In this document: piece after piece, positions 11,592 to 47,861 of the stretch | How positions within the stretch are numbered: the first letter of the stretch is position 1 | Layout of the letters: each line of letters begins with the position of its first letter | Assembly (NCBI GenBank): GCA_012837895.1 | Contig: DUQH01000008.1 | Coordinates: 1 to 51,309, forward strand | DNA from: Candidatus Fermentithermobacillaceae bacterium | Lineage (GTDB): Bacteria; Bacillota; Sulfobacillia; Fermentithermobacillales; Fermentithermobacillaceae | DNA: 51,309 bases | Direction: 5' to 3' | The notes under the pieces: model-generated | What the model saw: only the letters and a program-made list of their open reading frames with translations | Told to the model about the DNA's origin: nothing | The model's database searches: none | Position numbers and translations under genes: made by a program

Positions 11592-12288
11592 GGCGCACGT
11601 AGTGCACCATTTGAATGTCTGACTTTGAGGACTTGGTGCACCTAGTGCGCCATTTCGCAGCGATCCTTCGTGGATTCACGGCTCATTGGTGCACGTGGTG
11701 CACCGTTTTGGAGGATTCCAAGCCGAAAACGACTTTGATTGGTGCACGTGATGCACCATTTTGGGAGCTCCTTGGCCGAAATCGGCGCTGATTGGTGCAC
11801 GTGGTGCACCATTTTGGGAGCTCCTTGGCCCGAAACGGCGCTGAATGGTGCACGTGATGCACCATTTTGGGAGCTCCTTGGCCCGAAACGGCGCTGAATG
11901 GTGCACGTGATGCACCATTTTGCGAACTTCCTAGCCGAAAACGACCTTGATTGGTGCACGTGGTGCACCATTTTGGGAGCTCCTTGGCCGAAATCGGCGC
12001 TGATTGGCGCATGTGGTGCACCATTTTGCGAACTTCCTAGCCGAAAACGACCTTGATTGGTGCACGTGGTGCACCATTCTGTGAGCTCCCTGGCTGAAAT
12101 CGGCGCTGAATGGCGCACGTGGTGCACCGTTTTGGAGGATTCCAAGCCGAAAACGACTTTGATTGGTGCACGTGATGCACCATTTTGGGAGCTCCTTGGC
12201 CGGAATCGGCGCTGAATGGTGCACGTGATGCACCATTTTGCGAACTTCCTAGCCGAAAACGACCTTGATTGGTGCATGTGGCGCACCA
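11592..12288 (+). repeat. 53-bp-pitch palindrome array 1, fourteen palindromes
   Basis: Fourteen copies of an 18-base near-palindrome, consensus GGTGCACGTGGTGCACCA, start at 11592, 11635, 11688, 11741, 11794, 11847, 11900, 11953, 12006, 12059, 12112, 12165, 12218 and 12271. The first step is 43 bases and all twelve others are exactly 53. With the preceding T the dyad is 8-3-8. The 35-base intervals fall into three related types that recur (GGAGGATTCCAAGCC type twice, GGAGCTCCTTGGC type about six times, GCGAACTTCCTAGCC type three times), each with smaller dyads such as GGAGCTCC and GCCGAAATCGGC. All three minus-strand frames are largely open because 53 is not a multiple of three; I do not regard any as a gene. 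A second array of the same pitch lies at 47124-47617. Confidence 0.95.
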
Positions 12289-12669: not shown

Positions 12670-13194
12670 GATTCTGCAGCGTTCCTGTAAGCACTTAAGG
12701 AATACTCAACACCCTTGTTCTTGCTGCGCCGGAACGCTTGTGCGGACACAGCTGATAACAGAGAAAAAGGAAAGCCCGGTTCCCGGGCTTTTTCATTTAT
12801 GGGTGAATTAGTGAGCTACCTCTACCTATTAATGAAATAATAAGCAGCTGCTTATTCGATGTCGTTCCGATTATTCTTAGTGCAGGAGAACATATGGAGC
12901 CACGGCTTTAACCTCCCGAGACTCCCAAAGCAAAATGGAAGGGACCCCGAAGACTGCCCATATGAGCAAAGAGGCTAGCGGCGAGACTAGCGCTCGGGCT
13001 AGCGACCAGGCTCTTGAACCTCCTCAAACGTCCCCAGCCATGGGAAATAGACCAGCCATGTAAAGCAGATATGATGGCCAGATCCAAGCGATCAGTCTGA
13101 GCCTCTTCAAACATCCCCACCCATGTAAAGTGCGAGAGAGTTCACTCATAGACTATTTTGTAGCGGTATATCCGGATTCGAACTACCAAAGCGC
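12670..13194. other. non-coding stretch between rpsU and the 26-bp array
   Basis: After the terminator lies a perfect 18-bp palindrome, AATAAGCAGCTGCTTATT at 12839-12856. It is followed by AGGAG at 12884 and a five-codon frame (ATG at 12893, MEPRL, TAA). From 12900 to 13140 two diverged copies of a segment containing CTCAAACGTCCCCAGCCATG and TTCAAACATCCCCACCCATG are visible, together with three GCTAG/ACTAG-rich short repeats. No gene of recognisable family is present; related genomes have yqeY, yqfA and yqfB in this interval. Confidence 0.55.
12771..12796 (+). terminator. intrinsic terminator after rpsU
   Basis: AAAGCCCGG, TT, CCCGGGCTTT followed by TTC: a GC-rich stem with a short loop and a T-run. 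The A-run upstream (GAGAAAAAGG) can pair with the T-run and makes it work partly in both directions. Confidence 0.85.
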
Positions 13195-13455
13195 CAACAT
13201 TTGGCACAGTGCGAACGAGCCGACATCTAGCACAGTGCGAGTGAGCCAACATTTGGCACAGTGTGAGCGAGCCGACATCTAGCACAGTGCGAACGAGTCG
13301 ACATCCAGCACAGTGCGAGTGAGCCAACATTTGGCACAGTGCGAGCGAGTCCACATCTAGCACAGTGGGAGCGAGCCGACATCTAGCACAGTACGAGTGA
13401 GTCAACATCTGGGACAGGGCGACTGACATCAACATCTAGCACAGGGAGAGTCAGC
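13195..13455 (+). repeat. 26-bp tandem repeat array, ten units, abutting yqfC
   Basis: Ten units starting at 13195, 13221, 13247, 13273, 13299, 13325, 13351, 13377, 13403 and 13430; eight steps are exactly 26 bases and the last is 27. The core is CRACATYTRGCACAGTGC and contains the small dyad GCACAGTGC. Two unit types (CAACATTTGG and CGACATCTAG) partly alternate. The final unit is altered to CACAGGGAGAGTCAGC and ends one base before the yqfC ATG, so it supplies the yqfC ribosome binding site. Confidence 0.93.
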
Positions 13456-46602: not shown

Positions 46603-47076
46603 TTGCTCATAGGTGTGATTTCCGATTCCCACGGGAACAGGAAACGCATACTTGATGCGTTGCCCTATTTAGAAGGAGTTGAACATATTCTCCACGCCGG
46701 GGATTTCTTCGAAGATGCCCAGAACATAGACGCGGCGGTTAAGTGCAAGGTTACCGCGGTAGCCGGCAACTGCGACTATATGGTGCGCGGGCCTTTTGAA
46801 GAACTGCTTGTGTTGAATGGCTACAGGATCTACTTGACCCACGGGCATCTTTATAATGTCAAGCGGGACCTTAAGGCGTTGGTGGAAAGAGCTAAAGAGT
46901 TGGATGCACACGTAGCGGTGTTCGGTCATACCCATACTCCCCAAGTGTTCTGTGAAGACGGCATTCTTATCGTAAATCCAGGGAGCCTCCATAGCCCACG
47001 GCAGGGCTATCAGCCTTCTATCGCGATGATAGACCTTTCGCAACGGCCTCCCAGGGCGGATCTTATATTCCTATAA
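46603..47076 (+). CDS. YfcE/MJ0936-family metallophosphoesterase
   Basis: A 157-residue calcineurin-like phosphodiesterase. Metal-binding motifs are all present: GVISDSHGN, ILHAGDFFE, AVAGNCD, LTHGHLYN and VFGHTHTPQV with NPGSLHSPR. The substrate is unknown. The TTG at 46603 follows GGAAGGAAGAGGG. The second palindrome array begins 48 bases after the stop. Confidence 0.93.
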   Translation: MLIGVISDSHGNRKRILDALPYLEGVEHILHAGDFFEDAQNIDAAVKCKVTAVAGNCDYMVRGPFEELLVLNGYRIYLTHGHLYNVKRDLKALVERAKELDAHVAVFGHTHTPQVFCEDGILIVNPGSLHSPRQGYQPSIAMIDLSQRPPRADLIFL

Positions 47077-47123: not shown

Positions 47124-47617
47124 GTTGCACCAGGTGTACCATTAGGGAGGCTTTTATTGGGGAACGGTTCGGGATGGTGAGTCTGGTGCACCGTTTCGGC
47201 GACGTGCGGCGGGGGATCTAGCCAGATTGGGGTACGTGGTGCACCACTATAATCGGATACTGTATCGAAGTCACTCACAATGGTGTATGTGATGCACCAT
47301 TCCTTCAGCAATCCACTTGAGAAGACCTAAGAATGGTGCACAGGACGCACCAGTTGGATTGGATTTCTTCCGGTAAAGGCGAAAATCGGTGCACCCGGTG
47401 AGCCATTTCAGTTGACGAATGCCCGGAAGCTAGGCAAAACGGTGCACACGGTGCACCATTTTTCGAAGATCCGGCGCCAAGGCAGAGATGATTGGTGCAT
47501 ATGATGTACCATTTTCCTGCTTTCTGCGGTCAGGGCTGTAAGGGTTGGTGCATGTGGTGCACCATTTTGCTGGTTTATGTGAGGAAACCGCGGAAGAATG
47601 GTGCACAGACTGCGCCA
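47124..47617 (+). repeat. 53-bp-pitch palindrome array 2, ten palindromes with unique intervals
   Basis: Ten copies of the same 18-base palindrome as array 1 (best copy GGTGCATGTGGTGCACCA at 47547) start at 47124, 47176, 47229, 47282, 47335, 47388, 47441, 47494, 47547 and 47600. The first step is 52 and the other eight are exactly 53. Copies are more diverged than in array 1, for example GGTGTATGTGATGCACCA and GGTGCACAGGACGCACCA. The 35-base intervals show no likeness to each other apart from T-rich starts and AT ends next to the palindrome. No insertion sequence genes or cas genes are nearby. Confidence 0.93.
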
Positions 47618-47784: not shown

Positions 47785-47861
47785 CGGGGAGTGGCGCAGT
47801 TTGGTAGCGCGCATGGTTTGGGACCATGAGGTCGCAGGTTCAAATCCTGTCTCCCCGACCA
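47785..47861 (+). tRNA. tRNA-Pro (anticodon TGG)
   Basis: A 77-base cloverleaf. The acceptor stem CGGGGAG pairs with CTCCCCG, the anticodon stem CATGG/CCATG holds the loop TTTGGGA with anticodon TGG, the T arm is GCAGG-TTCAAAT-CCTGT, and CCA is encoded. The C1-G72 pair fits proline. An antisense frame here yields the well-known spurious peptide [20 protein letters not shown] and is not a gene. Confidence 0.97.

Follow-up and report, generated by a model that had tools for sequence, protein, structure and literature searches.

Two arrays of regularly spaced palindromes in the window, i.e. the whole stretch of 51,309 nucleotides analysed here, belong to a family of arrays that is dispersed over the chromosome, restricted to one genus, and built with a pitch quantised in whole turns of the DNA helix. 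The segments between the palindromes have a common A/T pattern phased with that pitch, and the position of the arrays relative to neighbouring genes is conserved at several loci. With moderate confidence, they can be read as double-stranded DNA operator arrays, on which a putative dimeric protein would occupy helically phased sites and assemble a cooperative patch that may serve as a chromosomal landmark or anchor.

The arrays of the window and of its genome

Array 2 comprises ten palindromes of the form GGTGCAYNNNRTGCACC, between yfcE and a tRNA-Pro gene (Table 1). They start at positions 47124, 47176, 47229, 47282, 47335, 47388, 47441, 47494, 47547 and 47600, which confirms the first-pass annotation of this DNA in its description of ten palindromes with eight of nine steps at 53 bp and one at 52. 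Its remark that several of these palindromes are decayed also stands, five of the ten (1, 2, 3, 6 and 10) matching at 15 of 17 positions. When two mismatches are allowed, 25 matches are found in the window, arrays 1 and 2 taken together, against 0.78 on average, and never more than 4, in shuffled sequences.

Table 1. Positions of the arrays, selected palindromes of array 2 and its neighbouring genes in the window
Feature	Position	Strand	Description
Array 1	11592..12287	.	Fourteen palindromes, steps 43 then 53 x12; between ddl and S21 gene
Array 2	47124..47616	.	Ten palindromes, steps 52 then 53 x8
Palindrome 1	47124..47140	.	Decayed; 3-bp indel relative to G002
Palindrome 3	47229..47245	.	Right arm (47238) marks where the 362-bp deletion of G002 ends on the left
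Palindrome 7	47441..47457	.	Consensus matched in full
Palindrome 9	47547..47563	.	Consensus matched in full
Palindrome 10	47600..47616	.	Left arm marks where the 362-bp deletion of G002 ends on the right
YfcE-family phosphodiesterase	46603..47076	+	Left neighbour of array 2; TIGR00040
tRNA-Pro(TGG)	47785..47858	+	Right neighbour of array 2; anticodon taken from orthologues

Array 1 has intervals of two types, whose order varies, and a period of 106 bp, and arrays are present at the matching place in two related genomes (G001 and G002). Long open frames extend over it, and a protein-coding repeat was considered and rejected because 53 is not divisible by three and each unit thus shifts the reading frame. 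A separate 26-bp tandem repeat lies near array 1, in the gap that separates the S21 gene from the gene after it (positions 13193-13444, about 9.7 copies, consensus GCCAACATCTAGCACAGTGCGAGCGA).

The 2.05 Mb genome of Candidatus Fermentithermobacillaceae from which the window is taken (G000) contains 181 motif matches, compared with 23 for a reversed control, and 21 array-bearing stretches, array 2 among them. As nine of these stretches are cut by contig ends, lying within approximately 210 bp of one (L101, L102, L103, L107, L108, L110, L112, L114 and L118), the true number of arrays is perhaps 16-17. The arrays seem to break short-read assembly, with nine array-bearing contigs ending near one. 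All five genomes of the genus (G000 to G004) are fragmented metagenome assemblies in which arrays are often found at contig ends, and the arrays of each occupy about 15-20 chromosomal places.

Spacing of the palindromes

A strict site score, with a background of 0.54 per 10 kb, identified 472 sites, only 19 of which are isolated. The steps between them cluster at 41-43, 52-54 and 63-64 bp, with a few at 75, 95 and 116-117 bp; most are 53 bp, corresponding to 5 x 10.6. Nearly all steps are 53 bp in the genus species other than G001, in which steps of 42-43 and 53 bp are both frequent and often alternate. Once the steps of 52-54 bp are set aside and every locus-step combination is counted a single time, the other steps share the phase of the 53-bp step for a period of 10.6 bp (R = 0.665, phase 0 degrees, p about 5 × 10-8); step counts are not independent, since units within an array are partly duplicates, and this per-locus test allows for duplication only in part. 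The turn classes correspond to 10.65 (four turns), 10.59 (five), 10.63 (six), 10.71 (seven), 10.56 (nine) and 10.59 (eleven) bp per turn, within a range of 10.55-10.71, the step counts having been entered and the classes assigned by hand. Off-phase steps between strict sites also exist (48, 50, 58, 78 and 102 bp). Weak extra sites in two arrays of G004 (L146 and L142), found at a lax threshold, split some 53-bp units into 21 and 32 bp, which are also whole turns.

Comparison between genomes bears on whether this spacing is maintained. At six loci whose flanking genes match, steps are 42/43 bp in G001 but 53 bp in G000 or G002. Selection on spacing, one of two readings that the first-pass annotation offered for array 2, is supported for the array family as a whole by helical quantisation and by the change of pitch by one turn in a related species. 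At the array 2 locus itself, the kind of alignment that the annotation recommended is a weak test. Two intervals are kept in G002, with two substitutions and no indel. However, only palindromes 1 and 2 are retained there as such, palindrome 3 having been fused to palindrome 10 by a 362-bp deletion between two GGTGCAC arms that leaves a step of 62 bp; two small indels, one of 3 bp within palindrome 1 and one of 1 bp just before it, accompany this, besides six substitutions in 163 aligned bases. In G001 no array is present between yfcE and tRNA-Pro. Hence array 2, reduced in one relative and absent from another, is not indispensable.

Across homologous interval pairs, length differs between genomes in 3 of 81, compared with 31 of 127 non-coding windows (those with 5-16 substitutions). 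Under matched scoring, with the same aligner and threshold, the figures are 3 of 81 intervals and 16 of 159 reference windows, the latter being less diverged than the interval pairs, a difference that falls short of significance (p = 0.13). For this reason the depletion of indels within intervals is only suggestive as an argument for selected spacing, and it is the quantised steps that carry the case.

These comparisons also bear on a neutral satellite, in which a founder 53-bp unit would have spread from one intergenic place to another and changed in number by unequal recombination of whole units, its pitch being inherited and not selected. The copying of intervals between arrays and genomes agrees with such an origin, as do the two interval types of array 1 with their varying order and 106-bp period, the differing unit numbers of the species and the non-significant matched indel test. 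Yet pitch changes are mostly of whole turns, G001 has moved to 42/43 bp at several separate loci with differing intervals, the 10.6-bp A/T phase is common to dissimilar units, and the motif is still strong despite the divergence of the intervals; overall, a neutral origin of the pitch appears rather unlikely.

Intervals, half-sites and known systems

The observation made at first sight, that the intervals of array 2 share almost nothing, holds for their pairwise comparison but not for the family to which they belong, which is not random: many intervals turn up again in further arrays, both in this genome and elsewhere in the genus, and together they have the common A/T pattern phased at 10.6 bp. 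Interval pairs are mostly dissimilar, yet related pairs exceed a profile-sampled null, whether the arrays and genomes compared are the same or different. Among 88 units with no mutual similarity, the strongest harmonic of A/T content lies at 10.6 bp (5.06; the next being 2.56), its peaks aligned with the palindrome centre, and the periodicity has a z of about 16 relative to intervals with permuted letters. This pattern is consistent with phased DNA bending. It may in part be a remnant of a common ancestor, because intervals partly related by descent or exchange may have inherited some of their common A/T profile and pitch. Steps of 43 bp could also arise simply from slippage between A/T tracts spaced 10 bp from each other.

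The two arms of the palindrome vary like independent DNA half-sites and unlike the strands of an RNA hairpin. G.U and A.C arm combinations occur in both orientations in all 53 of 53 arrays. When standard pairing was compared with that of reshuffled partners, covariation was absent at pairs 1, 2, 3, 6, 7 and 8 of the eight arm pairs, pair 8 being worse than the reshuffled control; an excess of standard pairing at pairs 4 and 5 may reflect drift of the motif between species. A stem of 7-9 bp closed by a 3-nt loop is possible for each palindrome, such that the arrays might act in transcripts as strings of hairpins, i.e. terminators, stabilisers or REP-like elements. This is very improbable given both mismatch orientations in every array and six of eight pairs without covariation, and the hairpin reading was rejected on the missing covariation; furthermore, the arrays match no Rfam family, the Y1 transposase associated with REP sequences is lacking in the genus, and a pitch in whole DNA turns has no rationale in RNA.

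The combination of half-sites that vary independently, spacing in whole turns and A/T segments in phase is the expectation for dimers on one face of bent or wrapped DNA. On the operator reading, a putative dimeric DNA-binding protein would take each palindrome through two half-sites (TGGTGCAY in the window's own species). With sites five helical turns apart, or four in many G001 arrays, bound dimers would lie on one face of the helix. The A/T-rich segments between them recur every 10.6 bp and are aligned with the palindrome centres, an arrangement that would help the DNA to bend or wrap smoothly. Binding would probably build a cooperative nucleoprotein patch at each of some 15-20 sites on the chromosome, which may be a landmark or anchor in the organisation or segregation of the chromosome.

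The closest known architecture is sopC, the SopB-bound parS of the F plasmid, with twelve tandem 43-bp repeats, each with a 16-bp inverted repeat to which a dimer binds (PMC9178275). As in sopC, the arrays consist of tandem units with one dyad each at a whole-turn pitch, and 43 bp, or approximately four turns, is the pitch class of G001. By contrast, sopC is found on one plasmid, downstream of sopAB, while the arrays occupy about 15-20 chromosomal places, with a 17-bp palindrome, a 3-bp centre and, in most species, a five-turn pitch. No linkage to parA or parB was found among the array neighbours; ParB genes lie on contig C71, on which no array was found. Whole-turn tandem operator arrays are known from a plasmid centromere; here, many arrays of this build are dispersed on one chromosome.

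Sites bound by Noc, of which there are about 70 in B. subtilis (PMC4331003), and by SlmA are likewise palindromic and dispersed over the chromosome, but they are described as discrete sites, whereas the arrays are long and phased. A Spo0J/Noc-like ParB pair and canonical parS are present in the genus, as they are in other genera that have no arrays, and no ParB beyond the usual pair was found in the genus. The arrays were rejected as chromosomal parS or Noc sites because canonical parS is separate from them, near parB, in the genus genomes examined; their palindrome, 17 bp long with a 3-bp centre, also differs from the 16-bp palindrome with abutting half-sites, close to TGTTTCACGTGAAACA, of such sites. 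REP/BIME sequences, which bind gyrase or IHF in the form of BIMEs (PMC2817692), are similar in being clustered intergenic palindromes, some regularly spaced. The arrays differ in having neither a GTAG-headed palindrome nor alternating REP orientation, and their palindromes are not kept by complementary changes. A REP/RAYT origin was discarded because the Y1 transposase is found in none of the five genus genomes, the control being positive.

Regular short palindromic repeats set apart by intervals of constant length also recall CRISPR, and a memory array with short repeats was considered. The probability of this is practically negligible: the repeats vary within each array instead of being near-identical between unique intervals, the intervals recur between arrays, those of array 2, the only ones searched, match no phage or plasmid, and no cas-like gene was seen in the partial list of neighbours examined. 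The recurrence of intervals and the missing phage or plasmid match of array 2 led to the rejection of CRISPR, and equally leave the first-pass suggestion that units were added with fresh intervals unsupported, the recurrence extending across species.

Distribution, neighbouring genes and putative role

Arrays are present in all five genomes of the genus, with motifs that have drifted. A generalised two-unit pattern has 91, 44, 54, 10 and 4 matches in these genomes, none in the nine genomes of the family that lie outside the genus, and counts no different from the control level in genomes farther away; in 146 genomes outside the genus, arrays are not above chance. In other genera, a motif-free palindrome detector found no array at the ddl locus. 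When public genomes were scanned with a pattern, arrays came up in contigs carrying the labels Candidatus Fermentithermobacillaceae and Bacillota; viral and Thiobacillus matches were dismissed as unrelated repeats. One unrelated viral contig (L219:1102-1194) carries four iteron-like GGTGCAC palindromes of the same half-site type, with steps of 21, 21 and 32 bp.

Within the genus, arrays are flanked by matching genes with approximately 80% protein identity; some are missing at matching loci, and unit number differs between species. One locus of G001 (L137, contig C43) is 99% identical over 4.7 kb to its G000 counterpart (L113, contig C100), in contrast to the approximately 80% at protein level of other matching loci, and this similarity ends abruptly inside the array. 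Contig C43 may therefore be mis-binned or recently transferred; the 42/43-bp pitch of G001 does not depend on it, as it adds only steps of 51 and 53 bp.

The motif is GGTGCAC in G000, G002 and G004, GGTRCAY in G001 and GGTACRC in G003, paired with a pitch of 53 bp for GGTGCAC, 43/53 bp for GGTRCAY and 53 bp for GGTACRC. A tentative possibility is that the arrays form a genus-specific system of chromosome architecture, in which a putative dimeric protein wraps phased arrays at about 15-20 places, and motif and pitch co-evolve with it. The variation of pitch, at four or five turns, and of motif among close relatives would represent a natural experiment on helical phase in nucleoprotein assembly.

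Alternatively, operator arrays could act locally, on the genes beside them, by silencing, insulating or regulating these. The arrays are mostly intergenic, several adjoin tRNA genes in the window's own genome, and large operator arrays can silence their neighbours, silencing by SopB at sopC being named in the title of a 1995 paper cited in PMC9499535. However, the neighbours are diverse housekeeping genes with no common theme, and gene orientation around the arrays is mixed. The link to tRNA genes is absent from the other species of the whole-genome set, and a general tRNA linkage was accordingly rejected. Among 73 array neighbours, searched on the basis of simple open reading frames, no gene family recurs other than generic ABC transporters and other common families. 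A local role is consequently judged unlikely, and a putative chromosomal role is favoured because of the wide dispersal of the arrays and their lack of a common neighbour.

The arrays point to a novel putative chromosome-organising protein. One HTH candidate and the ParB genes were looked at, with no binding protein for the arrays found among them; the candidate, an XRE-type HTH gene beside one array, is not a likely binder because it is not conserved in the genus. Genes for adenine-specific DNA methyltransferases are situated close to two arrays (L104:4050-4859 and L116:2070-2993).
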